Source: Candidatus Endomicrobiellum trichonymphae
GTDB taxonomy: Bacteria > Elusimicrobiota > Endomicrobiia > Endomicrobiales > Endomicrobiaceae
Reading direction: 5' to 3'
Length of the DNA stretch: 64,000 nt
Assembly: GCF_002355835.1 (NCBI RefSeq)
Contig: NZ_AP017459.1
Coordinates: forward strand, 682,001-746,000
The translations under genes were made by a program, and so were the position numbers. Shown here one piece after another: positions 7,450 to 52,405 of this stretch (positions are counted from its first letter, which is position 1; the number at the start of each line of letters is the position of its first letter). The notes beneath the pieces were generated by a model. It was not told the origin of the DNA. It saw only the letters and a program-made list of their open reading frames with translations, and did no database searches.

Positions 7450-8532
7450 TTACCTACAATAACTTTTTATCATAGAAATAATTTTCTCAACCCATTTATC
7501 TACATTGACCTTTCCTATAAGCTTGCCGTTTTTAAACAATATTCCCGTATTCTTTCCTCCGGCTATGCCAAAATCTGCGTCTTTTGCTTCTCCCGGACCG
7601 TTTACAATGCAACCCATCAAAGCCACTTTTACAGGTTTAGAAAATCTCTTCAAGTTTTTCATTGCAGAAGTTTTCTTTTCAATTTCTGAAACTATCTTTA
7701 TTAAATCAACTTCACATCTGGAACATGTGGGACATGAAACAATCTCTATTCCTGAACTTCGAAGTTCCATAGACTGCAAAAGAGAATAAGCTGTTTTAAC
7801 TTCTTCAACAGGATTTGCGGTAAGAGAAATCCTGATAGTGTCGCCGATACCATCGTACAACATTATGCTAAGCCCAGCCGCCGATTTTACGGTCCCGCTG
7901 AAAATTGAACCTGCTTCCGTTATTCCCAGATGAAGAGGATAATTTCTTTTTGAAGCAAAAATTTTATATGCTTTTACTGTCGTATCAATATCTGAAGCTT
8001 TTAAAGAAACAACTATGTCTTGAAAATTGTGCTTTTCTAAAATTTTTACATGTTCCATTGCTGCACTTGAAAGAGCTTTTGCCCGTAAAAAATTATCGGA
8101 AAAATTATGAACTTCTTTTAAAGATCCAGCGTTAACTCCAATTCGTATGGGTATATGCGCTTTTTTTGCTTCTTTTGCCAAAACACTTATTTTATCTTTT
8201 GAACCTATATTCCCTGAATTAATTCTTAATTTATCAGCGCCCTGCTTTATTGCTTCAAGTGCTATTCTATAGTCAAAATGAACGTCTGCAACCAAGGGGA
8301 TTTTAATACTTTTTTTTATTTTGCCTAAATTACAAGCAGATTCTATATCGGGAAGAGAAATACGTACGATTTCACAGCCTGTTTCTTCAAGTTGTTTTAT
8401 TTGTCTTACGGTAGCTTTCCAGTCTCTTGAATTTGTATTTGTCATCGACTGGACAGCAACAGGAGACCCGCCTCCTATTATAACGCTTCCGATACTTATT
8501 TTTCTTGTTTCGGTTCTTTTATAAAATTTCAT
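7450..8532 (-). CDS. ispG: (E)-4-hydroxy-3-methylbut-2-enyl-diphosphate synthase
   Basis: Penultimate enzyme of the MEP isoprenoid pathway, which converts MEcPP to HMBPP using a [4Fe-4S] cluster. At 360 residues it is the short bacterial form. The N-terminus has VAVQSMTNTNSRD at the TIM-barrel mouth. The C-terminal cluster cysteines are visible in SCPTCSRCEVDL and MGCIVNGPGEAKDADFG. With dxr just upstream and ispE at 57.2 kb, three MEP pathway genes are in this window. About 500 bp of non-coding DNA separates it from dxr. Confidence 0.95.
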   Translation of the reverse strand: MKFYKRTETRKISIGSVIIGGGSPVAVQSMTNTNSRDWKATVRQIKQLEETGCEIVRISLPDIESACNLGKIKKSIKIPLVADVHFDYRIALEAIKQGADKLRINSGNIGSKDKISVLAKEAKKAHIPIRIGVNAGSLKEVHNFSDNFLRAKALSSAAMEHVKILEKHNFQDIVVSLKASDIDTTVKAYKIFASKRNYPLHLGITEAGSIFSGTVKSAAGLSIMLYDGIGDTIRISLTANPVEEVKTAYSLLQSMELRSSGIEIVSCPTCSRCEVDLIKIVSEIEKKTSAMKNLKRFSKPVKVALMGCIVNGPGEAKDADFGIAGGKNTGILFKNGKLIGKVNVDKWVEKIISMIKSYCR

Positions 8533-9044
8533 TTTTAGATTAAATCAAAATCTTTTTCTAAATCTTTAGTTCTGATTCTTGACTACAGGCAGTTATTTAT
8601 ACGACGGCGAATTCAGTTTTACGTTTTTCTTCATTAAGGTTTTAACAATCCTTCATAATTTTTGCTGCTTTTGATTCTATAAAAATAACGCCGCTTAAAA
8701 AGGAATGTACCTGCCATGCAAATATGCTTTATTGGAGTGTAATTTTCCAGTCAATCTTTATTTTAAATATTCACGCCTAATAATTAATACAAACAACCCA
8801 ATCAGCATAATAATTTTTATTAATATTCTTATTTTGTCCCAAACTCTCTGCAAAATATGACAACAGCTTGATATATGCGGAATAGAAAGTGAAAATTTTC
8901 CACATGCCCCCTTTTACTTTAGTAAATAGAGACAGAAGTACGAATAATGATAAAAACGGGAGTAAATTTTATTTTTACTGTAGACACTGCAATGTAAATT
9001 AAATAATTATCTTTTTTCGCTAAACTCTCCCTTTATACTACGAA
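8533..9044. other. Gene-free gap at the usual rseP position
   Basis: 512 bp with no credible open frame on either strand. In many bacteria the gene after dxr in this block is the site-2 protease rseP, and ispG or proS follows. I could not recognise HExxH, NPDG or PDZ-like pieces here, so the stretch is either an unrecognisably eroded gene or ordinary spacer. No terminator or clear promoter is visible. Confidence 0.5.
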
Positions 9045-17691: not shown

Positions 17692-18672
17692 TATTCCTAA
17701 ATCTTTATTTTCTATATTTTAATTCTGCTGTTTCTGATCAGGAAAAACACACCATTTATCAACTATTACCATTATCTCAGCCTTATCCCCTTAAAAAGTT
17801 ATAGGGTTGGATCGAAGCTGTTAATTCAAACCACAAACATTATTTTTATAGTAGCTTTTTGCACTATAAATATAATAGCCTCTTTTTACTTCTCTCTAAG
17901 TTATACTTATTTTTTCTATTCCCTCTGTTTAAATTGATAACTTCCGTTTCCTAGTTTTGCATCTTACTATGCTCATAGAACTCTATTTTTGGTTGTATTT
18001 TCATCATCACTGCTACTAGCAGATTTCCATGGAAACCCATCACCTTGATAACTTGACTGCGGCAGTTATTTTTTCCCCAAAAGAATTACGAACTTTCTTG
18101 TCCCGGGGGTAGCACAGGGGCTTTTCATCTTTCTTCCCCTCAAAGAGCTTTCCTTTATTTTCATTGTTCGTACTATCATTTTAACCATTCTAGCGACTGT
18201 TCTGATATTCTGTGGCGGGTCAACGAATTTTTTTGTTGATTAATTTCTATAAACAGCTGGAACAAGTTTCCAACCCAGAGTAGAAACTCCAACTGTCCCG
18301 ACTACCCACCACTTGTACTCCTAAAGATAGCGTCCGACAACGACTGCGCAATTCTTTATTATTTTCATTCTTATTTAAAAACACAAAAGCAAGGATCAAA
18401 CATTCTTTTTTCTCCATCCTCAAAACCCTTGTCCACACTTCAAGGAAACCATAAACCGTTTTTCACTTTAGATTTCTAATCCGCAACGAACTTCCCGACA
18501 CTTTCTGCTATCAGAAACGCTCTCACTAATATAAATGTATGCTTCATATTCTTCTAAACATCTTTAATCATCACAAGGTATATCGTCTGTTGAATTCACT
18601 CCATATGTCATATTTATCCATCAATGTATTAAATTACTTTTTTTCTACTAAATACAACTTTAATATTATCAA

Positions 18673-19677
18673 TCACGGAACTTTGCATATAAAAACAAAT
18701 TCTTTATGCCCGTTAAAAAATGTTTTACCTGAATTAAAAAATTTATGGTCATAATCATAAATTTTCAATTTACCCAATTTGGATAAAATATCTTGAAGTT
18801 GCTCAAATTTAATTTTATTATTAGATGCTTCACTATTAGCATGATAAGTATTATTATATGATAGTACAATATATTTGGTTTTAAGTTTAGACAATAAATC
18901 TGTTAAAGAATTTAATGCCTTTGATTTTGAATAATCACTTTTTTTGTTATTTCTTGGCATTTTTAGAGTTTTACCTGAAATTGACATCTTTTTCCACTCT
19001 GCTATATTCTCTAATATATGATAAAAATTTATATACTGCCTTGCATTATACGGAGGGTCTATATATGTTAAATCTGCAATTATGCTATCAGCAATACTAT
19101 TAGCATTTTTGCAAGTAATTATTGGCGAATATTTATATTGTTTAATTTTAAGAGGGAGAAGTTCTATTTTTTTATCCTTTGGAGTAGAAGATAAGAATGC
19201 TTCATAGTGTCTAACAGTATTTGCAATTTTGTCAGCTGAGTACAGTAAAGAACTGAGAAGTATGTAATATTCTCGTTCCGTTACTTCATTTTTTATAGTT
19301 TCTAAATGTTCTCTTACAGAACCTATAAATTTCGCATTAGAGTATGAAAAGTATGTTCCAGAAAATGTATCTGAAAAATAATTATCTTTTATATAATCTT
19401 TTGAATTGTTATAATAATTCAATAATTTATATATTTTGGCTTGATTGTATTTGCCACTAGAAAGCCACGCATTATAAAAAATATAATTTGAATACAAACT
19501 ATCATTTATATAGACTTTTTTATTTTGTGATAAAAAATATTCAGAAACTACTCCTGTCCCGGCAAATAAATCAGAAAAAGTGTTAAATTTGATATTCTCC
19601 AGATCTAACACTTTCACAATAAAACTAATGAGCTTTGATTTACTACCAATATACCTACGATTTTGTATTTTATACAC
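18673..19677 (-). CDS. D12-class adenine-specific DNA methyltransferase (second of pair)
   Basis: A 334-residue N6-adenine methyltransferase. SAM motif I is DLFAGTGVV (residues 36-44) and catalytic motif IV is DPPYNARQY (207-215). The N-terminal RYIGSKSKLI is the typical D12 opening. The start is GTG at 19677, overlapping the upstream methyltransferase by 8 bp. Two distinct adenine methyltransferases beside one nuclease usually means an asymmetric recognition site, with one enzyme per strand; that is known for type IIS systems and inferred here. The reading frame is intact, unlike the nuclease gene of the cassette. Confidence 0.88.
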   Translation of the reverse strand: MYKIQNRRYIGSKSKLISFIVKVLDLENIKFNTFSDLFAGTGVVSEYFLSQNKKVYINDSLYSNYIFYNAWLSSGKYNQAKIYKLLNYYNNSKDYIKDNYFSDTFSGTYFSYSNAKFIGSVREHLETIKNEVTEREYYILLSSLLYSADKIANTVRHYEAFLSSTPKDKKIELLPLKIKQYKYSPIITCKNANSIADSIIADLTYIDPPYNARQYINFYHILENIAEWKKMSISGKTLKMPRNNKKSDYSKSKALNSLTDLLSKLKTKYIVLSYNNTYHANSEASNNKIKFEQLQDILSKLGKLKIYDYDHKFFNSGKTFFNGHKEFVFICKVP

Positions 19678-20593
19678 TATAATTTGTTATTAAAACCTCT
19701 TCTTCTGGCGTTGCCCTATCCTTTTTATTATAACTTGAAGAACGATAATGATAACTTATGTAATTAATATCGAATTTATTCTTTTTAATCCATGATAATA
19801 AGATTTTATTTACATTAGCGCCTTTTCTTAATACATTTGATAGAGCGAATCTTATTCCTTTTTCGTTCAAATACAACAAAACTGAAAGTAATTCTGTCTC
19901 TTTAACCTCATCCCACTTTGAACCGCTCCAATTATAAACAGCATTTGTAATTAAATATGGCGGATCTATATAAACAAAATCATCTTTGCGTAAATCAAGC
20001 TCTTTAATAACTCTAAAATCTGATTGAACAAACTTAATGTTTTTATTCTTTAGTCCATATTTAAAAGAAGTTAATTTTTTGCGAATACTTTCATTAAAGT
20101 CTGTTTTACCAACAGGCATATTGAACTTCCCTGCAGAATTAAAACGCAAGTCATTATTAAAACAAAAAACTAACAGGGTAAATAAACACACTGCACTGTC
20201 TCTATGCGTATTAAAAGAATCATCATTATAAAAACTACGTAACTTTGCATATCCTTCAGCATTAAACTGTTTTAAGCCATTATTTCCCTGAATATATTTT
20301 CTGTACATATCATAGCCATTATTGAAAGTATCTGATAATTTGAATGTGTTGATAAATCCCTCCATCTTATCAATAATTAATTTCTCAGATAAGAAGCGAA
20401 GAGTTTTTAATAGTTCTATAACTTTTTTATTATTGTCAAAACAAATAATATATTTAGCATTTACATTTAGCCCAACACTTGCTCCGCCACAACACATATC
20501 TACAAATTTGTTTATTTTTTGTGGGAAATGAGGGAATAGTTGATCTAAAAGCCTTGATTTATTCCCTGTGTAGTTTAATGGAGATTTTATCAT
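19670..20593 (-). CDS. Dam-like D12-class adenine DNA methyltransferase (first of pair)
   Basis: 307 residues. It opens with PLNYTGNKSRLL, as in Dam/DpnM-type enzymes. Motif I is FVDMCCGGASVG (about 31-41) and the catalytic tetrad is DPPY (210-213), within VYIDPPYLIT. The ATG overlaps the stop of the HNH nuclease gene (ATGA type, 20590-20593). Intact and presumably active, it would protect the host DNA from the partner nuclease. The strongly AT-rich codons (AAT, ATT, AAA) differ from the murA-proS block and suggest lateral acquisition. Confidence 0.9.
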   Translation of the reverse strand: MIKSPLNYTGNKSRLLDQLFPHFPQKINKFVDMCCGGASVGLNVNAKYIICFDNNKKVIELLKTLRFLSEKLIIDKMEGFINTFKLSDTFNNGYDMYRKYIQGNNGLKQFNAEGYAKLRSFYNDDSFNTHRDSAVCLFTLLVFCFNNDLRFNSAGKFNMPVGKTDFNESIRKKLTSFKYGLKNKNIKFVQSDFRVIKELDLRKDDFVYIDPPYLITNAVYNWSGSKWDEVKETELLSVLLYLNEKGIRFALSNVLRKGANVNKILLSWIKKNKFDINYISYHYRSSSYNKKDRATPEEEVLITNYSV

Positions 20594-21960
20594 TTATTTT
20601 CTTCCAAATCTTCCTCTAATCCGTAAAAACTCCCAAGAGTATTAATATCAACAAAAATACCTTTTTTAATCCACGCTTTTTTATCTATTCCACTATACAT
20701 TTTAATCAGCAAATCTTTAACAATATTATTCTGTGCGTTATGTAATTTACGATGACAATTTGGACATAAGGGTATCATGTTTTCTTTTATATCTATATCA
20801 TTGTTAAACAAATGAGAATGCTCTAACTTTATTAGATGATGAATTTCAAGATAAACTAAACGCTTCTTAGTTAAAAAATATCCTTTCTTATGCCACTCTG
20901 AGTAGTCCCCATAATCAAAAAAACATCTTTTTTCATATTTATTAATAACCTCTTGCTTTTGATCTAATGAAAACTTACGACTAGTATTTTTATTAAAAAG
21001 AACATTCTTATCTTCTTCTTTTACTCCAGAAGCGTAAAAAATGACTTCTAATATATACTTTGATAATCTCTTAAAAATTTGTTTTGTTAAATCTTTATCA
21101 TTATCGCCAATTCCCAGAAACTTATTAAGCCCTTTTGTAAATAGTAAATCAACATAAGTATTGATAATTTTTTCTCTTTTTTCCTTTAAATTATCAATAC
21201 CTGTATTCTTTAAACAAGTCTTTTTAAAAATGTAATAATTTACTACTGTAAAAACATCAGATACAAAATTCTTTTTTCCACCGGCATTTAGTATCTTTAT
21301 TCTTAATGGACTATCTTTTCCATTAATATATTTGTATAAATATTCTAAATCGTTATCTTTTACTTCATTAGATAATATTTTATAGGCAAACTCATACCCT
21401 ATATCGCAAGTTGGATTATATAAGATGGAAGATACAAAAAGCCTATTATTATTATTATTATTTAAAATTAAATCTTGCGCAGTTGCTACTAAATCGCCAT
21501 TGAAATTATTGGTAATTTTATCAATATCAATTAATGACTGTTTATCAATGCCAAAATATCTCCCCAATAAAAGATATAAATATAGAAAAGCCGTCACATA
21601 TTGAATACCATTCTTTTGAATGATACCATAAAGTTTTTCTGCCAACAAGTTCAAATTAGGATTATTTTCAACATTCCTAAATAATAGAGAAGCTAACTCT
21701 AACCTTTTAAATTTCTGTTTATGTTTTCTCTATTGCCTTATATTATAACACCAATTTTTCCAAGCCAATGGATTTTTTTTCTTTTTGAGATATTCAGGAA
21801 CAAGTTCATTTATATATTTTGAGATTGTTTGGGGACTTCTTATATTTGTTGTAATATACCCGAAAATCCTTGTTTGCTTGGTATGAGTGTTGGAAACAAA
21901 ACTTTCTGTGTTTATTTTTTCTATAAATTCTTTTATCTTTTGCACAATTTCCTCTGTCAT
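20590..21960 (-). pseudogene. HNH restriction endonuclease with one in-frame amber stop
   Basis: A single frame runs from the ATG at 21960 to 20590 (457 codons including the stop) with one TAG at codon 77 (21730-21732). The second part, after the TAG, has an HNH nuclease core near its C-terminus: LEIHHLIKLEHSH followed by MIPLCPNCHRKLHNA, supplying the HH, N and H residues plus a CxxC zinc pair. After the TAG no ATG exists before TTG at 21654, so a truncated product would start poorly. It overlaps the two adenine methyltransferases downstream, making an R-M-M operon. I infer that the nuclease has recently been silenced while the methyltransferases persist. Confidence 0.8.
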
Positions 21961-22086
21961 CTGCCCATACTATTGCCACATATGTATTACGTATAATTGC
22001 AAGTAATATTTTATTCAACTGTCCATTACCCAATATTGGTAATTTTAGGATATAGAACTTAATTTTATCACTCAATTACATCATTT

Positions 22087-31175: not shown

Positions 31176-31919
31176 TCACCTTTTATATAAATAATTATAA
31201 AATAAGTTCAAAATGTCGACACTCAACAAAAAAGGAACATTTAATTTTTTCAGCAAAATTTTAAAATCGTTAACACAATGTAAATTACCTTTCATTTCAA
31301 TATAATTTATATTCTCGGATTTTAATTGATTTCTGTTTTGCTCACTCAAAGTATCCGCAATAAAGATATCGGTACCTCTGGCATATATTACATCCGCACT
31401 CTCAGGATTCCCCTTGCCCATAAGCTTAACCTCAACTCTATATTCTTTTTCTTTTCTGCTATCATAGAGTTTAAAATCAACTTCTCTATCAAAATTTAAA
31501 GTCCCATCTTTTTAAAAAATTGAACTATTAATATATTCCTCTGGCACTTTACATAATTTACACAGTTTTAATATAAAGGTTTTTCAACTTTTTTGCCTAT
31601 TGAACTCCATGCCCCCCCCTCGTATCGCTATTTTTTTTGTTGCACTTCCACGCATATTAGTGATTGTCTTTTTATTTATACCTGCAAATATTGCTTTATC
31701 ATCAGGAGAAATATTATCTGCAGCAATAAAATGTTTTTTATACCAAACCAAGTCAACATTATTTTCTTGAATTTTTACAGCAACTATCTTCTTGAAAAAA
31801 TCTACAGCAAAATCAAGAAAAGACACATTTATTGCATTCACAACTTCATCGCGATAATCATCGCCTTTAACCAATTTACTTACAGCACTATCAATGACTT
31901 CTTTTTCAAAGGTTATCAT
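31176..31919 (-). pseudogene. Type II restriction endonuclease relic
   Basis: Two large pieces of one nuclease remain. The N-terminal part (31919-31584) reads through helices and INKKTITNMRGSATKK to a run of eight G on the coding strand (31612-31619), where the frame is lost. In the next frame AWSSIGKKVEKPL follows, then further stops near 31570 and 31515. The C-terminal part has REVDFKLYDSRKEKEYRVEVKLMGKG (about 31405-31485), matching the D...ExK of a PD-(D/E)XK nuclease, and ends at 31176. The pattern resembles restriction enzymes of the CfrBI type, from memory only. At least three lesions make it dead. Confidence 0.7.
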
Positions 31920-32680
31920 AATTTTCTTCTTCCAATTTTTTTATATACTTATTATCCATTTCACACAACACTGGAATTCTTTTCCTCTTTTTTGCCACTC
32001 TTCCAAAAGTCCCAGAACCCGCAAAAGGATCTAAAACTACATCTCCACTAAAAGAATAATATTTTAAAACTTTTTCACATAATTTTTCTGGAAAAACAGC
32101 CGGATGATCTTTATCTATTTTTGGAGATATATGCCAACAATTTGACGTATCTGTATTTTCAACGGCATTTGCCAATATTCTTGTTTTCATCTAGCAAAAA
32201 AGGCGTCTTTTTCCTGTAAACCAATAAACTTTCAGTAACACAGTTAGGTTTATAAGACAAAGGCATACCGGTTTGTAAATAACCCGCAATTCTGTTTGGA
32301 ACTGTATACTCAGGTTTAATCCATATAATTTCATCTATAAAATAAAAACCTGCTTCTTCTAAAATCTTATGAAAGTCAAAGTGAATTGGATATCTAACAC
32401 TTTCAAACTCTCGACCAGGTCTTTTTGTAATTACCGGAGAAACATTTATAATAATAAAACGTCCATCTTCTAATACACGATTACATTGTTTTAAAACACT
32501 ACACATCTTTTCTAAATACCTTTCATAAGACGTATAATCAGAATACATCCTGGCATTATAATATGGCGGAGATGTAAATATAAAATGTATAGTTTTACTC
32601 TGAATTCTTAACAAAGTTTGCTCGCTATCGCCTTTTAATAAAGTTGCCTTTATAATTTTTCTCTTGTTTTTTACATCCAA
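31906..32680 (-). pseudogene. Beta-class DNA methyltransferase, frameshifted
   Basis: The N-terminal frame (32680-32159) carries catalytic motif IV, FTSPPYYNARMY. The S-P-P-Y form is typical of N4-cytosine enzymes and some N6-adenine enzymes. The C-terminal frame (32190-31906) has SAM motif I, VVLDPFAGSGTFG. Motif IV before motif I is the beta-class permutation. The frames overlap around 32160-32190, where a shift splits the gene. It overlaps the nuclease relic by 14 bp and the upstream ORF by 10 bp, forming one dead R-M operon. Confidence 0.82.
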
Positions 32681-33060
32681 TAATTTCGATTTTTTCTATG
32701 CAAAAAATATTCATACATCTTATGCATTACTTCATTGTTGTAAAAAGATAATAGACGATTCCCCAATTCTTGAAATTCAATTTTACTAAATCTATACAAT
32801 GTTGTACGAAACATTTGATAAACAAGTTCCATATATGTTTTTTTAAAACCTTCTTTCATTATAAACTCATAAATTTTTTTATCAATTTATTGTCTTCCAA
32901 TAGACGAAACAACTTCCCTTTTTATATCCAAAGGAAGAATACTGTTATAAAACAATAAGAGTTTATTTAAATTTTCTTCACTCTTTTCTTTACCGAGTTG
33001 CTTTATATATTCTATATTTATATTATCTTTACAATAGCTTTCCTCTAAAGCACATTCCAT
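32671..33060 (-). pseudogene. Unknown R-M-associated gene with one in-frame TAA
   Basis: One frame opens at the ATG at 33060 and runs to 32671 (about 129 codons), interrupted by TAA at codon 58 (32887-32889). Both halves are similar in character, helical and rich in Lys, Glu, Leu and Tyr, which supports a single original protein. No conserved motif was recognised. It overlaps the beta-class methyltransferase start by 10 bp, so it belonged to that cassette, possibly as a regulatory or specificity partner. That role is a guess. Confidence 0.5.
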
Positions 33061-33269
33061 AATAAAACACTCCTATAAAAAACTATCAGCTACATATAGT
33101 CTATTTTGCTTCACGAAACATTCAAGACTTAACAACCATGATTAACCGCAATCACGGCAATCAATACATCTTTAGGTTAAAGTTTATTCAATTCTATCCT
33201 ATTCCAAATCTCAACTGGGAAATATTTTTTTATTGCATCCTGTGCTTTTAAATTATTTTTTAATCTGTT

Positions 33270-34967
33270 TTAATCCTTTATTATTTTTTCTAATTCGGCT
33301 TTCCTCTGTTCAGCCCAAGCACAAATTTTTATTTCTTTTTTAAACCTGACATAATTCTTTTCTACTTCTTTTAAATTATTTCCTTTTGTTAAATGTGAAT
33401 CTGTGAAATAGTAATTGATTTTCATTGATATATAATTGGATATTTGCAATTCCATTTCTTTTTCTAGCTGTAGAATCACTTCACTTTTAATACTTTCAAC
33501 AGCATTTTTATCCTGCACCAATAATTTTTCCGACAATAACTTTAAAAAGGATTCGTCAAAAAAAAGATTTTCAATTTCCGCCATTGAAAATGAAAATATA
33601 TCATTCGATTTTAACTTTTCTAATCTATCAGCTCCATGATGGTCTGAATCAATTAATCCAATTGCTTTTGTTGTCAAATTAGACATTTTATTAAAAGCTT
33701 TTGTATAGTTAATGACAGAAAAGCAACTTTCAACAGGAATTATCGTAAAATCAGGAAACAAGATATTATATATTTGTTCATCGATACCACCTTTTTTACC
33801 TTCGCAAAACAAAATATTTTTCCTACTACCAAGCAATTCCATCAGCAATTCTTCCGGCAGTTCATTTCCCTTAATATATTCTATTTCCCATTTATCAGGA
33901 ACACTAAAAGACTTTATCCAAACTTTTTTTGCTAATGCTCTGCTTGTTGCAAAACCTAAGTCATGAGTTAAGTAAATAAAAATGCAATCTTTTCTTTCAT
34001 CCTCTAAAATATCCCATAATTTATTCAGAATAGTTTTATGTAAATACATTTCAGGCTCGTCAACAATAACAAAACCGTCTTTGGGCGACTGTAAAACATA
34101 GGCTATTAAATAAAGCGCTACTTTTTCGCCATCACTCATTTGATATGCTGGATAATTAACGCTCAAATTTGTTTTCATTTTCAAGGTAAAAGTAATACCG
34201 CTCTCCACTTCAAGAATTCTATGCTGGATTAGAGAATTCCATATTTTTATCACATTATCTAAATTGTTTTTAGGTAGCTCATAATCTTTATTAGTTCCTC
34301 TTTGGATATTATCGCAAAATTTATTTCTTACCTCATTTCTTTCTGCAAGAAGATTGCCAAGCAGCATCTTACATTCATCAAGAACGTAACTTATAGATGT
34401 AATACTTGCAGAATAAGGTTCTTTTAATGACTTGTCACGGCTTTGTGATTCTTGTAATTTTATAGAAGTATTAACAATATTAGGAATTGCATCAAAAGTA
34501 GGCATTAGTAGAATTTTTTGAGCTGAAATAACAGTCCCGGCAGTCGGTAAATATTGCAATAAGTTCCGGTTTTTACTAAAAAACCCGAGTTTTTTAAAGA
34601 AATCAAGATTAAATTGCAATGGTTTTAATTTTTCTGACAATTGTTTAGTTATATTTTCTATTTCTATTTGTTGTTTTATTTACTTCTTATCATCATCTTT
34701 AATAAAGTCCAAATTTTGATAGCTTCTTCTATATGAGAAAACATTTAAAATTTGATTAATATCATTTTGAAATTGAGTTAAATAATTAATTTTAATTAAT
34801 TGTTTTGTATTCGACACTATACCCTTTATTTCAGAACAACAAAATATTGTCTCAGTATATAAATCAAGCATACTTTTATCCACATCACATTTAACTAAAA
34901 TATTTTTATGCTGTTCTAATCGCTCTATAGCTGAACTAATAAATTGTAAAAAATTTTCTTCTGTCAC
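33270..34967 (-). pseudogene. OLD/DUF4435-like ATPase lacking a P-loop, in-frame TAA
   Basis: A single frame from GTG at 34967 to 33270 (566 codons) has one TAA at codon 96 (34680-34682). The second part has an ABC/AAA signature, MSDGEKVALYL, Walker B (FVIVDEPEMYLH) and an H-loop (YLTHDLGFA). These are followed by a TOPRIM-like or DUF4435-like region: NILFCEGKKGGIDEQ, then GLIDSDHHGADRL. No Walker A (GxxxxGKS/T) is present before QYLPTAGTVISAQ, where relatives have one. The N-terminal domain has therefore been lost or rearranged. Related ATPase-nucleases often act in phage defence. It is not functional as read. Confidence 0.6.
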
Positions 34968-35140: not shown

Positions 35141-37447
35141 CTAAAAGCACTTAGAGTAGCTGCATCCACGACAAATAACACAACTTTCGGCAAAAGTCAA
35201 CATCTCACCGCATTCCGGGCATTGCGGGCATGCTCCCGACGAATTACCGCTTAAACCGGAAGTATAATGTTTTTTTATATATTTTGACGCATAAGGTTCC
35301 GAAACAGACATATCCCGAGCGGAAAGAACCGGCGTCATTTTTTCTCTCTTATACGCTTCTAAAGCTTTCGCAACGGCATCCGCGCACGATAAAATTATTC
35401 CGCCGTCCGCAAGTGTCGGAGACGGACATCTTATACCTTTCAACTGATCTATAATTCCTTGTTGATCAACGCCAGAGCGCAAAGCTAAAGAAATTAAACG
35501 ACTTATCGCTTCAGCCTGCGATGAAGTACATCCTCCGGATTTACCAAGCTGCGTAAACACTTCGCACATTCCTCTGTCATCTTCATTTACGGTAACATAC
35601 ATTTTGCCACAACCGGTATGCATAAGGAACGTCAAACCAGTTGTCTTTTTAGGACGAGTTCTCGGTTTTTTCTCATGCAATGCTCCTTGAGAATATTCTT
35701 CTTTTTTGTTTGCAAGATTTAACACCTGCACATTCCTGCTTCCGTCGCGGTAAACAGTTACTCCCTTGCAACCCATTTTATATGAAAGAATATAAACTTT
35801 TTTTACATCTTCTTTCGTGGCTGAATTAGGAAAATTTACAGTTTTTGATACGGCATTATCCGTAAATTTCTGGAAAGCCGCTTGCATTTTTATATGTTCT
35901 TCAGGCGCAATATCATGTGAAGTTACAAAAATTTTCTTTATTTTCTCTGGAATTTCTTTAAATCCGCGTATACTTCCTTTTTCTGATATTTTATCTATAA
36001 GTTCCGGCGAATAAAAACCGTTTTCTTTTGCAAGTTTCTCAAAATACGGATTTACTTCATACATCTCTTCATTGTCAAGACATTGCATTCTTTTATAAAC
36101 AAGCGCAAAAATCGGTTCAATGCCACCGGAAGCCGAAGCTATCATACCAATTGTTCCCGTCGGAGCGATTGTAGTCGTTGTTGCATTTCTTACGGGACTT
36201 CCCTTTGCGTATATACTTTTTTTAAAGTTTGGGAAAGATCCTCTCTTAAAAGCAAGCTCTTCGGAAGCTTTACGGGATTTAGAATGAATAAAACCCATAA
36301 GTTCTTCGGCAAGCGCCAAAGAATCGTTAGATCCGTAGGGTATACCTAAATACAAAAGCAAATCTGCCCACCCCATAATCCCAAGTCCTATTTTTCTGTT
36401 GGAGCGAGTAACCTCGCCAATTTTCTGTATAGGATAATTACTTACATCTATAACGTTGTCAAGAAAATGAACGGCAGTTTTCACTGTTTTCTCAAGTTTT
36501 TCCCAGTTTACGTCGTTGTTTTTTACAAAATGACCAAGATTTATTGAGCCTAAATTGCAGGATTCATAAGGAAGAAGTGGCTGTTCTCCACATGGATTTG
36601 TAGATTCTATTGAACCCGCCGACGGAGTAGGGTTTTTATGGTTCATTCTGTCAACAAAAACTATACCCGGTTCGCCATTTTTCCATGCTTGATCGACTAT
36701 CTTGCCAAAAACTTCATTTGCGTTTAATCTGCCTATTATCACACCGTTTCTCGGATTGTAAAGATTATAATATTCTCCTTTTTCCAAAGCATCCATAAAC
36801 TTTTTTGTAATCGCAACAGATATATTAAAATTATTTAAACTGTCATCTTTATCCTTGCAGATTATAAAATCCAAAATATCAGGATGATCTATCCTCAACA
36901 TTCCCATATTTGCACCGCGTCTTGTACCGCCCTGTTTAATAGCTTCCGTAGCAGCATTAAAAACTTGCATAAAAGATATGGGACCAGAAGAAATACCGCT
37001 TGTGGTTCTTACCACATCTTTTTTAGGACGCAATCTTGAAAATGAGAACCCCGTCCCGCCGCCAGATTTATGTATAAGAGCCGTATTTTTCAAAGTCTCA
37101 AAAATTGAATCCATTGAATCGTCTATCGGCAAGACAAAACACGCCGAAAGCTGTTGCAAATGTCTGCCTGCATTCATTAAAGTAGGCGAGTTAGGTAAAA
37201 AATCACAAGAAGACATTGTGAGATAAAACTCTCTTATCAATATAGTTATATCCGTATCTTCATCATAAATTTTGTCCGCCTGAGCAATATTTTCGGCAAC
37301 TCTGTAGAACAAATCTTCAGGACTTTCAATCACATTACCATCTTTATCTTTCTTCAAATACCTTTTTTTTAGAACAGTAAGTGCATTATTCTCTAGATTA
37401 ACTTTGTTTTCTGAAATTAATTCTTCTTTTTTATCCCGCAACATCAA
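35141..37447 (-). CDS. nrdJ: Adenosylcobalamin-dependent ribonucleotide reductase (class II)
   Basis: 768 residues. It makes deoxyribonucleotides with a B12 radical and needs no oxygen, which suits an anaerobe. Substrate-site and active-site sequences are present: PNSPTLMNAGR, a Cys in QLSACFVLPI, the radical-site region STNPCGEQPLLPYESCNLGS (Cys, Asn, Glu), and APTGTIGMIA. The C-terminus ends in a zinc-ribbon-like stretch with CPQCPECG and CRGCSYSKC, which supplies the redox cysteines. It lies 33 bp after the nrdR relic, so it was in the same operon. Translation ends at TAG. Confidence 0.95.
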   Translation of the reverse strand: MMLRDKKEELISENKVNLENNALTVLKKRYLKKDKDGNVIESPEDLFYRVAENIAQADKIYDEDTDITILIREFYLTMSSCDFLPNSPTLMNAGRHLQQLSACFVLPIDDSMDSIFETLKNTALIHKSGGGTGFSFSRLRPKKDVVRTTSGISSGPISFMQVFNAATEAIKQGGTRRGANMGMLRIDHPDILDFIICKDKDDSLNNFNISVAITKKFMDALEKGEYYNLYNPRNGVIIGRLNANEVFGKIVDQAWKNGEPGIVFVDRMNHKNPTPSAGSIESTNPCGEQPLLPYESCNLGSINLGHFVKNNDVNWEKLEKTVKTAVHFLDNVIDVSNYPIQKIGEVTRSNRKIGLGIMGWADLLLYLGIPYGSNDSLALAEELMGFIHSKSRKASEELAFKRGSFPNFKKSIYAKGSPVRNATTTTIAPTGTIGMIASASGGIEPIFALVYKRMQCLDNEEMYEVNPYFEKLAKENGFYSPELIDKISEKGSIRGFKEIPEKIKKIFVTSHDIAPEEHIKMQAAFQKFTDNAVSKTVNFPNSATKEDVKKVYILSYKMGCKGVTVYRDGSRNVQVLNLANKKEEYSQGALHEKKPRTRPKKTTGLTFLMHTGCGKMYVTVNEDDRGMCEVFTQLGKSGGCTSSQAEAISRLISLALRSGVDQQGIIDQLKGIRCPSPTLADGGIILSCADAVAKALEAYKREKMTPVLSARDMSVSEPYASKYIKKHYTSGLSGNSSGACPQCPECGEMLTFAESCVICRGCSYSKCF

Positions 37448-37479
37448 TATCTCCTATATATCTAATTAACTGACTACTA

Positions 37480-37932
37480 TTAAAGTTTTTTATTTTTTTT
37501 TCGTCTCTTCACATATTCTTTTTTCAGTTTTTGCAATTCTTTCATAAATGTGCTAATATCATCAAACTTTCTATATACTGATGCAAATCTTATATATGCA
37601 ATCAAATCAATATTCCAAATCTTTTACCCTATATTCCTCGAAGGAATTTCCATAATACATTCGCCCACAATTTCATCTTCAATTTTACTTACCATTTTAT
37701 TTATTGTTTCAGACGAAATAGAACGTTTTCTATACATACCTGCCCAAATTTTTCTCCTGTCAAACGGTTCTCTTCTACTGTCTGATTTAACAACCATAAT
37801 CGGTAGTTCTTTAGGTCTCTCAAAAGTTTTGTAGTTGAGCCATTTCCTGAGTCTTCTTACAGCCGGCACATGTTCGATAGGGAGCGAATCAAGAACCTGA
37901 TCATTATTAATACCGCAAAAAGGATAATTCAT
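37480..37932 (-). pseudogene. nrdR: Transcriptional repressor NrdR, inactivated
   Basis: A 151-codon frame, exactly NrdR length, with one in-frame TAA at codon 103 (37624-37626). The ATP-cone domain is recognisable (PIMVVKSDSRREPFDRRKI) and the C-terminal [14 protein letters not shown] follows the stop. The N-terminal zinc ribbon is ruined: the MxCPxC start reads MNYPFCG, and the second CxxC is WLNY with a few residues deleted. Three of four zinc ligands are therefore gone. NrdR normally represses ribonucleotide reductase genes, and here it lies directly upstream of nrdJ. The double damage shows long relaxed selection, not a sequencing error alone. Confidence 0.88.
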
Positions 37933-37974
37933 TCTTTTTCTCTCCTTCTATTTTATTGAAATTCAAGAATAATT

Positions 37975-38020
37975 AAACTATATGTTGTGATAGAAGCAAT
38001 TTATAACATATATATAGAAT
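37975..38020 (-). promoter_or_regulatory. Tandem NrdR-box-like operators
   Basis: Two motifs resemble the NrdR box ACACwATATwTwGTGT. AAACTATATGTTGTGA (37975-37990) matches about 13 of 16 positions. AACATATATATAGAAT (38005-38020) matches about 11. Their starts are 30 bp apart, close to the roughly 31-bp (three helical turns) spacing of known paired boxes. They lie 43-88 bp upstream of the nrdR start, where the promoter of nrdR-nrdJ should be. The AT-rich background raises the chance of coincidence, mainly for the weaker box. Confidence 0.5.
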
Positions 38021-38512
38021 TTGTAAATGATTAACACTTATAACAATACTCATCCGTTTTTACATATTTCTAATATCTCTATTATTTACAAATTTATGGG
38101 CATACGCTAATTAATCAATTAAGATAGTCTAAAATTTTACTGCAGATTGGCTCTAGCGGTGGATATCCGGGAGAGACTTCAGTTATTTAATGATAAAAGT
38201 CTTTTCACAATTATTCAAAAAACTCCCAAAATGAAAACAGACATATAAACATCTAAAATGCATCCAACTCCAAATAACGCTTAAATGATTGAATTAAAAA
38301 TAAAGTACTAAAAATTATACTTTCTGCAAAATTAAAACTGGCAATACGGTACAACTTTTTTTGTACGGCGTCAAACTGCCGAAATTGATTATATAAAATA
38401 CCGTCGAAATAAGATGAGGTATTTAATTATGGTTATGAATATTTATATACAAGCGGAAAATTAATCACTGACTGTAAAACAGACTTACAATCAAAATAAT
38501 ATTGAAATATCA
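38021..38512. other. Gene-free gap
   Basis: About 490 bp between the NrdR-box region and the SpoVG-like gene. Stops are frequent in all frames, and I recognise no protein relic, RNA gene or terminator. Confidence 0.5.
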
Positions 38513-39073
38513 TTATTTACCTTTTATTTTATCATTTTTAAAAATATAGTCGTCAATCAGTTTTTTCTCAACTGCTTTTTTTAAATCTTTATTTATAAAC
38601 TCAAAATCTTTTACCCATACGCCGTCTTTTTTATTTGAAGGCCACGCAATCCATAAACCTTTTGCGCTCTGCATAATACGACATTCAATTTCAATATCAT
38701 CGTCAAAAATGACGGATACAAAAGCTTTTATTTTTAGATGTTTTTTTGAAATCGAAAGTTTATTCGTTTTAAATACGGTTTTTTCAGTTTTTGAAGATAT
38801 TTTATTTTGATATAAAGCACTGACTAGATATTGCCTGAACTCTCTTTTTAAAATGCCAAATTGTTTATATACTTTATTTTTACTCCTATATATAGGCAAT
38901 TTAACATCATTATTTTTCAAGAGTATATTTGAAATCTTAATATCATCGTTTAAAACTATTTCAAATGATTTATTATCATGAATAATTTTGGTAATCTTTA
39001 ATTCAGCATAAAGAGACGAACATAATACGAGAGGAGCAATTAAAACCAATAATGAGATTTTAGCTAATGTCAT
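38513..39073 (-). CDS. Exported protein with a SpoVG-like C-terminal domain
   Basis: 186 residues. Residues 1-23 are a signal peptide: short positive start, hydrophobic core, and CSSLYA just before the probable cleavage site. The C-terminal part from about residue 117 resembles SpoVG: AFVSVIFDDDIEIECRIM, then GLWIAWPSNKKDGVW (family: GLFVAMPS), then a helix with KKLIDDY. SpoVG is normally a cytoplasmic nucleic-acid-binding protein of about 90 residues, so an exported version is odd. The middle region (24-115) is unassigned and Lys-rich. Homology is judged by eye. The frame is intact and preceded only by relic sequence. Confidence 0.6.
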   Translation of the reverse strand: MTLAKISLLVLIAPLVLCSSLYAELKITKIIHDNKSFEIVLNDDIKISNILLKNNDVKLPIYRSKNKVYKQFGILKREFRQYLVSALYQNKISSKTEKTVFKTNKLSISKKHLKIKAFVSVIFDDDIEIECRIMQSAKGLWIAWPSNKKDGVWVKDFEFINKDLKKAVEKKLIDDYIFKNDKIKGK

Positions 39074-39087
39074 TTTTTATATCTGCA

Positions 39088-39561
39088 TCATGTTTTATTT
39101 TTTGATATTTTATCAAGGAATTCAACATAATGTAAAAGATTTGAATTATATTTTGTGAGAATCTGTAAGCCTGAAATTAAAGAATTTACTTCAAGGGTTT
39201 TTTCTCCTTTTGCAAAGGGGGAAATTTATAGTATCTAGCGGAAGTTCCGAAACAAGATATTTTAAAACTATCTATTCGTCTTCAATATCCCGTTCGGAAT
39301 GCAACAATGAAACCAAATCTTCAATACCAAACAGCATAAGAGGTTCATAATTTATTTTCTCTGTCGTGGTAAAGAACAAAACGCTCGGCATAAAATACTT
39401 TTTTACATTCAAGGCAGGATACAACATTAATTCCCCCCCCCTTCCATTAACACACTCTTTCACTCAGGATTATCTGAAATGCTTATTGCAGAAAACAACT
39501 CTGCTTCAAAAGCATATCCACAGGGACACTCAATTTCTTCGACAAGATTTGAGATTGTCAT
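39088..39561 (-). pseudogene. CpXC-domain protein relic
   Basis: The ATG at 39561 starts SNLVEEIECPCGYAFEAELF, the CpXC-type opening with a Cys pair. The frame breaks near 39440 at a run of about nine C (G on the coding strand). A second frame continues MLYPALNVKKYF, then NYEPLMLFGIEDLVSLL, and stops at 39272. Downstream pieces VLKYLVSELPLD and ISGLQILTKYNSNLLHYVEF continue the family-like C-terminus to 39088 with further shifts. The internal zinc region and aromatic middle part are missing. The function of intact CpXC proteins is not established. Confidence 0.6.
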
Positions 39562-48050: not shown

Positions 48051-48413
48051 CTAGCATTTTTTATTTTTTAGAATATAACTTATAACATTTTTTTTAAAAC
48101 TATAAAATATTTTTAAACCATTCTCTACATTAAATTGCCGTATATCTAAAACAATTTGACTTCTTTGAACATCATAGCTATTAATTTTAAAACTTCCCGT
48201 ATGATGACTTATAATCATCGTATTTTTGTCAAGTTTTACAAATAAATCCTTTTTAATATTCAAATTTTTCATGTTTACTATTAAGTCATTTCCATTGATT
48301 TTATAATCTAAAGAAATATTAATTTTAAATATTGGAATAAAAAAAATAACAATAAAAATTATAGAAGCTATTATAATAAAATTATTTATAAAAAATATTT
48401 GTTTTTGAATCAT
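48051..48413 (-). CDS. Small membrane-anchored protein of the exporter cluster
   Basis: 120 residues with one strong N-terminal membrane helix (about 9-28), then an extracytoplasmic beta-rich region (LDYKINGNDLIVNMKNL and similar). The layout recalls the start of HlyD-type membrane-fusion proteins but lacks their long hairpin, so it is either a short accessory protein or a truncated relic. It follows the ABC exporter by 18 bp and shares its extreme AT bias. The role is unknown. Confidence 0.5.
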   Translation of the reverse strand: MIQKQIFFINNFIIIASIIFIVIFFIPIFKINISLDYKINGNDLIVNMKNLNIKKDLFVKLDKNTMIISHHTGSFKINSYDVQRSQIVLDIRQFNVENGLKIFYSFKKNVISYILKNKKC

Positions 48414-48431
48414 TTATCTCTCGACAACAAT

Positions 48432-50036
48432 TTACACCTGAATTTTTTTATCAAACAAATTAGCAATACTTACTCTATGGGAAACAGCAATAATAATTTT
48501 GTCTTTATAAAAATTAATTAAATTCTTATAAATTTCTATTTCCATATTTTCATGAATAGAATTTCCGAACTCATCTAATAATAAAACTTCAGGATTTTTC
48601 ATTAGACATCTTGCTAAAGTTATCCTTTGTTTTTCTCCTCCCGAAACAAATACGCCTTTATTCCCTACAACTCTTTTATCATCTAAATTATCAAGTTTAC
48701 ATATTTTTAAAATTTCTAAATATTTTTGATTTACTATTAAATTATTATGATCTAAATTTAATAAAATATTTTCTTTAATAGTTGTATTAAATAAAAAAGA
48801 ATCTTGCGTGAAATAAGATATTTTAGATCGAAAATTTTTAATGTCTATACCATATAAGTCTTCACCATTTATTAGAATGTTGCCAGCAGATATATTATCA
48901 AAAAGTACTATTAAATTTAAAATTGTCGTCTTACCAACTCCGGTATTTCCAATTAAAACAGTTTTATCTTTTGAATTAATTTTTAAATTCAGATTTTTTA
49001 ATATAACTCTACTGTTTTTTTCTACTGAAACATTTTGAAAAACTATACTGTTAATTTTTTTAACATCATTATTAACATCATTATTTTCATACTTTCTAAG
49101 CAATATTCTTTTAATTCTTTTCCAAGGCACATCGGAATTCTTAATAGAAAAATAAAGACTCCAAAAATCATTAATAACATAAAAAAGATTATCCGATATG
49201 CTATAAATAAAAATTGCTTGCCCTAAAGTAATTACTTTCTGCTGAACTTGACAACCCAAAAATCCGAGCAAAATTCCAATAATAATATGTTGTAACGACA
49301 CACCAAATTGTCCGGATGTAAATCCCCAAAAAATTCTTTTTACATTTATCAAAACTAAATCTTCGACTTTAGAATCAATCTCGTCCGTTTCTTTTTTATA
49401 TAAATCAAATAATTTTATTTCTCTAATCGAATCTATCACATCTGATAATTTTGAAGAATATAAAGCAAACTTTTCCTGATATTTAGATGTAAAACATCGA
49501 TTCTTTCTATTAAAAAAAGAAAAAAACAAAGATGGCAAAACAGCACTTAAAATAAGCAACAAAATAATTAGAAAATTAAATTGTAAAAAAATCGGCAACA
49601 AACATGCTAAAAAGAATATTGAACTGATACTCTTTGCTATCGGGGCTACAAATAAATCATTTATAAGTTCTGTATCATTTATAACTCTCTGGGATAAATA
49701 TGGACCTTTATTTAGATTACTGTTGACGTTGTATCTAGAATTTAAGAATTTTGTTAAAATAATCTTTCTGAAGTCAAATAAAACTTTATTTTCTAACAAA
49801 TATAAAGTAAGTGTTTTAAATAAAACAGAAAATGAGCTGAAAACTAACACGGAAATGTATAAAGTCACAAAAATCAAAACAAAATTATTGCTAATATCAA
49901 CTGTATCAATGAAAACCACTAAGAAAAAAGTAGTAATTATATTGATGAATTTCAATAAAAAATCAATTCCTAAATATTGAAAAACTTCTGTTTTATAATT
50001 CCTAAAAAGATTAAATACAATATTAATCTTTTCCAT
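48432..50036 (-). CDS. ABC exporter (fused membrane and ATPase domains)
   Basis: 534 residues. About six N-terminal membrane helices (to about residue 300) are followed by one ATPase domain: Walker A IGNTGVGKTT, Q-loop YFTQDS, signature VSGGEKQR, Walker B VLLLDE and H-loop VSHR. All are intact. There is no C39 peptidase domain, so it would not itself cleave a leader peptide. It overlaps the radical SAM gene upstream by 14 bp. Exporters of this kind next to a SPASM radical SAM enzyme commonly secrete modified peptides (RiPPs). The substrate is not proven. Confidence 0.88.
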   Translation of the reverse strand: MEKINIVFNLFRNYKTEVFQYLGIDFLLKFINIITTFFLVVFIDTVDISNNFVLIFVTLYISVLVFSSFSVLFKTLTLYLLENKVLFDFRKIILTKFLNSRYNVNSNLNKGPYLSQRVINDTELINDLFVAPIAKSISSIFFLACLLPIFLQFNFLIILLLILSAVLPSLFFSFFNRKNRCFTSKYQEKFALYSSKLSDVIDSIREIKLFDLYKKETDEIDSKVEDLVLINVKRIFWGFTSGQFGVSLQHIIIGILLGFLGCQVQQKVITLGQAIFIYSISDNLFYVINDFWSLYFSIKNSDVPWKRIKRILLRKYENNDVNNDVKKINSIVFQNVSVEKNSRVILKNLNLKINSKDKTVLIGNTGVGKTTILNLIVLFDNISAGNILINGEDLYGIDIKNFRSKISYFTQDSFLFNTTIKENILLNLDHNNLIVNQKYLEILKICKLDNLDDKRVVGNKGVFVSGGEKQRITLARCLMKNPEVLLLDEFGNSIHENMEIEIYKNLINFYKDKIIIAVSHRVSIANLFDKKIQV

Positions 50037-51378
50037 TCTTCTTGAGACTCTTATAATATAATCTCAATCCTTTTTCATATTCATATTTCCACTCACTACA
50101 ACCTAATTCTAAAAAATTCCCTATATTGGTTTCTTTTTTAAATCTCCTTACCATATTGCATCCACCCTTACATATAGGCAATAATTTACAGTGATAACAC
50201 TCTAATTTTTCAAAATCAAAATCTTTTTTTATCCAGTCTGTATACTTATAAGTTAAGTTTATACTTTTATCTCTTATATTTCCGATAGATTCAGATCTAT
50301 TAAATACATTTTCAAAACACTTAAAAATATCACCGTTTGCGTCTATAACAAACACATTGTTTTTATAAGCCCCGCATTCTTTATACAATTCCGGGTAAGG
50401 AGTAAAATTTATGATATTTTTATTAAACAACTCCTCATAAATATCAAAATATATATTAGAATATTCTCTGGAATCAAAAATATCATTTAAAATAGCATAA
50501 TCCAGTTGCGAATTTAAGTAAGGGATATGCAATGGACCTAAAGCAAAGTTTACTTTATTAAAAAATAAATTATCATTTTTCAATTTTTCAACGAAACTAA
50601 CAATTTGATTAAAATTTTTCTTTGACAACGCAATTCTTAAAACAATTGATATTAATTCTGCCGTATTTTTTACATTTTCATAAGTATTATTAAAATTTGA
50701 TTTATTTGTATTCTTAATAGGTCTGTTTAGTGAATCCAAAATTTCTGTTGGCTCTATAGAAACTTGTATATTACTAACTCCTACTTTCTGTAAAATTTTT
50801 ACAGTTTCTTTATTCAATAAAACAGCATTGGTTATAATATTGGACTTATAGTGAATATCGTTTTTACAACAAAAATTAATAATTTCTTCTGATAATTTTA
50901 TTATATTATCAAGATCAATTAATGGCTCTCCGCCAGACCACGTTATAAATAAATTTTTAATTTTATGATCTTCATAGTATCGTTTTATAAAATTGATAAT
51001 ATTTTTATAATTTCTTGCTGACAATTTATAAATGTTATCTTTATTTACATAACAAAAAATACAATTCAAATTACATTCATTTGTAATTGCTACTGTTAAA
51101 TTTAAACTGTCGAAAAAATATTTATTTCTTTCAAAATTAATTATAACTTCATTTTTTTCATCTTGATTGTAATTTACAAAAAAACCTAATTCATAGAGCT
51201 TTTTAAAATCCTAATCAATCCTTAAATTCATATCGTCTTTGTTGACTTTTATTACATAGTTAAAATAAATATTTTTTTCTAGTTTTACTAAATTGTTGTT
51301 TCTACTATTGTAAAGTAGCAAGCTATCTTCATTTAAATTAACAACAAAATTATACTGAGAAATTTTCATTTCCTGCAT
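50023..51378 (-). pseudogene. Radical SAM/SPASM peptide-maturase-like gene with one amber stop
   Basis: One frame of 452 codons from the ATG at 51378 (an ATG at 51369 is also possible) with a single TAG at codon 56 (51211-51213). The N-terminal region, SQYNFVVNLN...LLLYNS, resembles the opening of radical SAM peptide maturases. The SAM cluster motif is CNLNCIFC (Cys 102, 106, 109), followed by WSGGEPLID. The C-terminus has SPASM-type auxiliary cysteines: KECGAYKNN, DANGDIFKCFE, CYHCKLLPICKGGC. Every catalytic element is downstream of the TAG, but the first restart is a TTG inside the cluster motif, so no useful protein would form without readthrough. It is coupled to the ABC exporter. Confidence 0.8.
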
Positions 51379-51410
51379 ATTTTAGTTTTATCAACAAATA
51401 AATTCCACCT

Positions 51411-51446
51411 CATGATTAATGTTCCATGCATGAAACATTAATCATG
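51411..51446. repeat. 36-bp near-perfect palindrome upstream of the radical SAM gene
   Basis: CATGATTAATGTT and its exact reverse complement AACATTAATCATG flank a 10-bp centre that itself contains CATGCATG. Only one centre-flanking pair mismatches. It lies 33 bp upstream of the radical SAM ATG and 19 bp after the candidate precursor. There is no T-tract on either side, so an operator for a dimeric regulator or an mRNA hairpin is likelier than an intrinsic terminator. Confidence 0.75.
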
Positions 51447-51464
51447 TAGTAGGAGCACTTTAAT

Positions 51465-51656
51465 TTATAAACCAACTCTTATTACTGGTGGCGGTGCTGG
51501 CTGTGCTGCCGGTGGCTGCCAACGCGACTGTTGTATTTCCTTCTGCTGCTCTACTAGAGAAGCACAATATCCCTCATAACCAGCACAAGCGCAGGCAGCT
51601 AGAATTAATTTATATTTCTAACTGTCTAATTTTACAACTTTTAAAACTTTATACAT
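51465..51656 (-). pseudogene. Candidate RiPP precursor or small lipoprotein ORF with one amber stop
   Basis: The ATG at 51656 opens a 64-codon frame with one TAG at codon 13 (51618-51620). The N-terminus is MYKVLKVVKLDS; after the TAG come KYKLILAACACAGYEGYC (Cys 22, 24, 31), a Gln-rich stretch, and a Pro/Ala-rich tail ending PPPVIRVGL. Two readings are possible. In one it is a leader plus Cys-containing core for the radical SAM enzyme 87 bp downstream on the same strand. In the other it is a small lipoprotein with LILAAC as lipobox. Local GC is far above the surroundings. No good Shine-Dalgarno was seen. The function is inferred from position only. Confidence 0.35.
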
Positions 51657-52333: not shown

Positions 52334-52349
52334 ATAATTATAAACTTAG

Positions 52350-52405
52350 GACAAACAACCTCACGGTCCCGAACCGAGCGCTCTAGCCAACTGAGCCACG
52401 CCCCG
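52350..52405 (-). pseudogene. tRNA-Pro (CGG), 3' truncated
   Basis: The 5' half is a normal tRNA-Pro: CGGGGCG acceptor strand, D-arm GCTC...GAGC, and anticodon loop TTCGGGA (anticodon CGG). The anticodon stem has one mismatch (T opposite T). After CCGTGAGG no T-arm and no CGCCCCG acceptor strand follow; the sequence runs into AT-rich spacer before tRNA-Arg. It cannot fold into a cloverleaf, so it is a pseudogene. Confidence 0.75.

Follow-up and report, generated by a model that had tools for sequence, protein, structure and literature searches.

Does a reduced intracellular symbiont of protists make, modify and export its own peptide? Such a system would be unusual in this setting, and the question is raised by a locus on the minus strand of a 64,000-nucleotide stretch (the window, G000:C1:682001-746000) of Candidatus Endomicrobiellum trichonymphae, whose genome (G000) comprises 1.13 Mb in four contigs. 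An earlier note on this DNA had proposed a possible locus for a ribosomally synthesized and post-translationally modified peptide (RiPP), made up of a radical S-adenosylmethionine (SAM) enzyme with SPASM cysteines, an ATP-binding cassette (ABC) exporter, a small membrane protein and a 64-codon Cys/Pro-rich frame, with one TAG each in this frame and in the enzyme gene. All these features are present (Table 1). Our results suggest that the locus is very probably a recently inactivated copy of a RiPP locus, specific to Endomicrobium as far as we searched. Note that the Endomicrobium symbionts of termite guts have been renamed Endomicrobiellum (PMC11257099), and that the named relatives of the window are Endomicrobium metagenome-assembled genomes from termite guts.

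Table 1. Features of the locus, with positions in the window
Feature	Position	Strand	Detail
Precursor-peptide pseudogene, 64-codon frame	51466..51656	-	Homologous to intact peptides upstream of the maturase in G026, G061, G010 and G020
In-frame TAG, precursor leader, codon 13	51618..51620	-	Glu in intact homologues
Core motif CACAGYEGYC, with CX3E motif (CAGYE)	51564..51593	-	Letters unchanged in the window
Long intergenic hairpin	51405..51452	-	RNA -28.5 kcal/mol, z = -6.5
Pseudogene of the radical SAM/SPASM peptide maturase; 451 aa with the TAG read through, start probably at 51369 or 51378	50023..51378	-	
In-frame TAG, maturase codon 56	51211..51213	-	Only lesion in 451 codons
CNLNCIFC, radical SAM [4Fe-4S] binding motif	51052..51075	-	Sequence and alignment
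C-terminal SPASM cysteines	50098..50376	-	TIGR04085 and alignment
Open ABC exporter, 534 aa, fused transmembrane and ATPase domains	48432..50036	-	PF00664 and PF00005 over cut-off
120-aa protein, open frame, with a single membrane helix at the N-terminus and a predicted beta domain	48051..48413	-	AlphaFold predicted local distance difference test score (pLDDT) 77

A precursor family, its maturase and its exporter

The 64-codon frame, read from 51656 to 51466, translates as MYKVLKVVKLDS*KYKLILAACACAGYEGYCASLVEQQKEIQQSRWQPPAAQPAPPPVIRVGL. Intact homologues lie directly upstream of the maturase in four relatives: G026 (MEILHVSKLDDENYEENQAKCACAGYEGYCSLLVAPPPPIWVPPPMPRPFL), G061 (MEILRVVKSDNEDYELSQASCSCAGYEGYCSVLVAPVPVPFPPFNPFPFPF), G010 (MEILKVVKPDNEGYELSPAACACAGYEGHCATLVPERPKPKPNPPPRPKPNPPPMPMPPPYHPPPFGPPFG) and G020 (MEILHLTKLDYEDYKLNDDECACAGYEGYCATLVSPPRPQPSLPPPSPRPF, with a GTG start). 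They are 51-71 aa long and share the core C[AS]CAGYEG[YH]C, followed by [AS]xLV and a Pro-rich tail; in all four a MEILxVxKxD leader of exactly 20 residues precedes the first Cys, and three of the four have clear Shine-Dalgarno sequences. A fifth relative, G060, has a frameshifted precursor relic at the expected place before the maturase. Thus, a small precursor gene is conserved next to a modifying enzyme and exporter in five relatives, with the exporter and the small protein downstream, as expected of the RiPP locus that had been proposed. G021 keeps a shortened relic that runs into the downstream gene; this relic (L056, about 9476, minus strand, G021:C79) is cut by a junction directly before an open reading frame (ORF) starting MEISEVKKILEALLFVSERPLSLKELKDLVKSDY, possibly scpB.

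The core pattern was found in 7 of 341 Elusimicrobiota genomes, all of them Endomicrobium, and a reversed control pattern had no matches, indicating that the motif is not due to chance. It occurs once in G000, is missing from the 299 other Elusimicrobiota genomes searched, and was not found in the viral contigs scanned. The precursor family has no NCBIfam match and no Pfam match over cut-off. The window frame has no Shine-Dalgarno sequence and its leader resembles the short hydrophobic stretch before a Cys, as would be seen if it were a chance ORF or a lipoprotein remnant and the maturase acted on another peptide. We rejected these readings, which are scarcely credible given the four relatives with intact homologues in place, three with clear Shine-Dalgarno sequences, all with 20-residue leaders and a conserved three-Cys core; neither an unrelated precursor elsewhere nor lipoprotein homologues away from maturases were encountered. 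The comparison indicates that the 64-codon frame is the relic of a true precursor gene, as the earlier note had suspected. The literature searched held no description of the cluster, searches by model name yielded nothing relevant, and the main text of the genus-wide comparative genome paper (PMC11257099) mentions neither RiPP, radical SAM nor bacteriocin. The precursor family, with its maturase and exporter, is real and apparently undescribed.

The maturase combines a CxxxCxxC motif with a C-terminal SPASM domain, and both domains score over curated cut-offs (radical SAM domain PF04055 in Pfam, 54.9 bits against 29.5; SPASM TIGR04085 in NCBIfam, 52 bits against 27), placing it in the radical SAM/SPASM class; the Pfam SPASM model PF13186 falls narrowly under its cut-off (18.9 against 21.5). 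Over its full length it resembles the RiPP maturase models TIGR04463 (E 2.6e-55), FlmE/OhkG (E 4.5e-52) and Clo7bot (E 4.5e-49), and it stays under every curated NCBIfam subfamily cut-off shown: TIGR04463 (525 bits; window 188, G005 185), Clo7bot TIGR04334 (600; 167 and 176), FlmE/OhkG NF052473 (500; 177 and 159), PapB NF047865 (340; 102 and 106) and SCIFF TIGR03974 (425; 49.9). Judged by these profiles, its nearest kin are enzymes that act on ranthipeptide, Clo7bot and other Cys-rich precursors. Among solved structures, the sequence search found a single relative, 5wgg/5why (E 3.3e-11). The AlphaFold model, made from three sequences, was too poor (pLDDT 44) to confirm the presumed N-terminal leader-binding domain. 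The maturase has been under purifying selection, with ratios of nonsynonymous to synonymous substitution rates (dN/dS) of 0.14-0.20.

The order on the minus strand is 64-codon frame, hairpin, radical SAM/SPASM frame, ABC exporter (overlapping the maturase frame by 14 nt) and 120-aa membrane protein. Pieced together across the genus, the sequences show the same order of precursor, hairpin, maturase, ABC exporter and small membrane protein. No other perfect stem of at least 12 bp with a loop of 3-12 nt occurs anywhere in the 64 kb window. G026 (z -5.6) and G020 (z -4.9) have similarly strong stems, of different sequence, in this position, and the broken G060 locus has no comparable stem (z -1.3). 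Since no T run follows the hairpin, its likely role would be partial termination or transcript processing that favours the precursor.

The exporter has no peptidase domain in Pfam or NCBIfam searches, and it too has been under purifying selection (pairwise dN/dS 0.14-0.26). It was considered as MsbA or as a peptidase-containing exporter, and both were rejected, since the NCBIfam cut-offs shown were all widely missed and the peptidase domain was not found. The 120-aa protein is kept behind the exporter in the relatives and has no Pfam or NCBIfam match over cut-off; its best PDB match by Foldseek has an E-value of 0.29. The label of a short (HlyD-type) membrane fusion protein was dropped because no Foldseek match was credible. 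The protein may be an adaptor or an immunity protein.

RiPP systems of this kind work by recognition of the leader, modification of the core by the SPASM enzyme and export of the product by the ABC protein. By this logic, in the intact system the leader of the precursor would be bound, the maturase would cross-link one of the core Cys residues to a second residue (Cys3 to Glu7 being the likeliest pair), the hairpin would set the ratio of precursor to maturase expression, and the ABC protein would export the peptide. CX3E is invariant across the five aligned precursors; the Cys thioether itself is a prediction. PapB accepts CX3E as a cross-link site and joins the Cys to the Glu (PMC9413430), and by analogy a Cys-to-Glu thioether at CAGYE is a plausible product here. 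For RiPP chemists, the family would offer a compact three-Cys substrate with a defined leader, for which G026 or G061 could serve as the intact donor.

Probable inactivation of the window copy

Does the system still work in this genome? The earlier note had raised a peptide-export system in the symbiont, and a working system does not hold here: both the precursor and the maturase are interrupted, and open frames are left for the exporter and the small membrane protein alone. At the precursor, the 5' region of the window matches the 5' untranslated AATATGTRTAAA of G010, G061 and G021 and then resumes within the coding sequence. In an affine-gap alignment allowing one long gap, made with these three relatives, the window skips 22-27 nt holding the Shine-Dalgarno sequence and the ATG. 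Ordinary gap costs choose an alignment with smaller gaps, so the deletion is the better, not the sole, reading; under either alignment the window precursor has no Shine-Dalgarno sequence. Because the deletion appears to remove the Shine-Dalgarno sequence and the real start, the ATG at 51656 probably belongs to what was once 5' untranslated sequence: the frame exists as it had been read, but its ATG is probably not the true start. The leader carries several further changes besides the TAG. In the maturase, no ATG, GTG or TTG lies between the TAG and the first cluster-binding Cys, hence there is no restart. The dN/dS of the maturase on the terminal branch of the window is low (0.14-0.18), indicating that the inactivation is recent.

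With one TAG in each gene, a maturase that is otherwise clean and constrained on the window branch, and an unchanged core motif, the locus might still work if both TAGs were read through by amber suppression or recoding to give full-length precursor and maturase. This is very improbable. Among the 34 listed window genes, 5 end in TAG as their normal stop, which makes recoding unlikely; no relative has a TAG at either position; read-through cannot repair the apparent loss of the precursor's Shine-Dalgarno sequence and start codon; and the assorted lesions in the relatives are typical of decay. Slightly less improbable is that base calling or assembly introduced the maturase TAG wrongly and that the living organism has an intact gene, as its being the only lesion in 451 codons and the low dN/dS on the branch would allow. 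However, the precursor also has a TAG, together with a probable start deletion and several leader changes, and single-lesion maturases have arisen independently in G010 and, in the part covered, in G017.

Several points weigh against a recently inactivated RiPP copy. The core sequence is unchanged in the window although the frame is broken, and the lone TAG of the maturase, which is clean apart from it, could stem from a sequencing error or be suppressed. A full intact cluster on one contig occurs in none of the genomes examined: the G026 and G061 contigs stop inside the maturase, and the precursor and maturase relics of G021 are on different contigs.

The cluster across the genus

We looked for the maturase in 60 relatives, and the 12 genomes that matched were all Endomicrobium, mostly with stops or frameshifts. 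The G010 gene is frameshifted near residue 311, the G017 gene has one TAA (a single lesion in the part of the gene covered) and the G005 gene has lost its start codon; the gene is grossly decayed in G020, G021, G034 and others. The lesions in other lineages include TAA, TGA, frameshift and deletion. The exporter is open in six genomes (G000, G010, G017, G021, G034 and G066), none of which shows a complete maturase. The start-less G005 maturase lies on a contig whose end overlaps the beginning of the G066 exporter contig over ~119 bp, with at least 110 bp identical, so these contigs are probably one locus. Exporter and small membrane protein are open together at L029 (1-2001), L037 (10673-12664), L039 (6088-8088), L040 (2552-4548) and L041 (8219-10219), in genomes whose maturase is broken. 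An intact maturase with a broken exporter was not seen. The probability of obtaining six of six from random lesions over the coding length is ~0.006, as estimated from gene lengths and uncorrected for shared ancestry.

The retained open exporters fit, without proving it, a kept immunity or other export role. It is possible, although on balance doubtful, that the exporter and small membrane protein work independently of the peptide, for instance in self-immunity or with another substrate, the peptide genes being dispensable passengers. In support of this, the exporter is open in six lineages with the maturase broken (G000, G010, G017, G021, G034) or start-less (G005 with L029) and the reverse was never seen; moreover, exporter dN/dS is 0.27 on the G021 branch despite a gutted maturase. 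However, the branches may mostly predate the loss of the maturase, so that low dN/dS does not prove later selection, and several other lineages carry lesions in exporter and membrane protein as well (the exporter is broken in G020, G023, G033, G004, G060 and G063/G067).

What was the peptide for? If the window holds the remains of a RiPP locus, its product would most likely have acted as an antibacterial or as a signal between symbionts that live in one flagellate host. A more specific and rather unlikely version is that symbionts used it as a weapon in competition for the same protist hosts, that exporter and small membrane protein also gave immunity, and that lineages repeatedly dropped the peptide and kept the resistance. 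If so, three states of an intracellular bacteriocin system would be preserved in the genus: producers, non-producers with resistance, and sensitive lineages. The lineages form a natural series, with maturase and precursor decaying and the exporter kept, which makes production versus immunity directly testable.

The cluster genes are set apart by base composition. They have the three lowest values of GC content at third codon positions (GC3) among 34 window genes (0.13, 0.18 and 0.195; the others, 0.24-0.32), in agreement with the AT-richer codon use that had been pointed out. The AT-rich codons and the patchy distribution are compatible with acquisition from outside. The genes around the cluster are unlike those of the window in G010, G021, G026, G034 and G061; G020, by contrast, keeps the cluster near ftsW, murG and uvrB, and locus L031 holds an exporter remnant at the window's own site. 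Movement of the cluster or genome rearrangement would each explain these surroundings. At L036, L037, L039, L041 and L055 the cluster lies between unrelated genes, and no integrase was noticed adjoining it.

Related systems and other observations

How does the locus compare with known systems? TIGR04463 is the best NCBIfam match, over nearly the whole maturase (E 2.6e-55, 188 bits), and the model is named for Cys-rich targets. However, its Methylomagnum member lies, by NCBI annotation, beside a 680-aa peptide with a Cys at every fifth position and a C-methyltransferase, whereas the window locus has a short peptide, an ABC exporter and a membrane protein instead. Clo7bot TIGR04334 shares full-length maturase similarity (E 4.5e-49). 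A Clostridia locus, L088, compared here by gene order and leader, has tandem Cys-rich peptides (leader MKYIVKP..GYC) upstream of its maturase, and downstream of the latter a fused ABC exporter; both this order and the leader MKYIVKP resemble those of the present locus (leader MEILKVVKP). Unlike Clo7bot, with seven precursors in tandem, the present locus has one, with a three-Cys core and a Pro-rich tail, and an added small membrane protein. PapB NF047865 shows radical SAM/SPASM similarity (E 3e-29) and a shared CX3E in the precursor core, but there is one CX3E here against the six CX3D/E motifs of PapA, and the bond here is proposed by analogy. SCIFF differs in having six Cys rather than a three-Cys core.

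Among the loci examined in the best free-living relatives, from Elusimicrobiota and Clostridia, some have small ORFs for Cys-rich peptides next to the maturase. Among other Elusimicrobiota, six loci (L070-L075) have a homologous maturase (best E 8e-35), adjoined by small Cys-rich peptides in L071, L072 and L075. Their peptides, however, are unrelated (MFTWYQ..VEC..GACCLSGCCCK), often tandem, and lie downstream of the maturase; an ABC ATPase and a permease then follow as genes of their own. The single or tandem MFTWYQ-type peptides after the maturase (L071, 6535-6807; L072, 4429-4933; L075, 6695-6796) represent another candidate RiPP group. A second, different RiPP-like cluster is present in an Endomicrobium (L078, 2906-8391, G017:C34). 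It holds a tandem pair of radical SAM/SPASM-like genes encoding 463 and 464 aa, a further radical SAM gene of 317 aa and an ABC exporter of 563 aa, and its precursor might be encoded by the 101-aa ORF that lies upstream at 8517-8822.

Elsewhere in the window, other AT-rich islands (GC 27-30%) lie at 18500-22000, 31500-34700 and 37000-39500, and carry DNA-methyltransferase-like and ATPase-like genes. Finally, a degenerate tRNA-Pro(CGG) lies at 52346-52405 on the minus strand (22 bits against Rfam's 29). Its seemingly complete counterpart is found in L031 (about 7563-7635), where ~120 bp are present that the window is missing.

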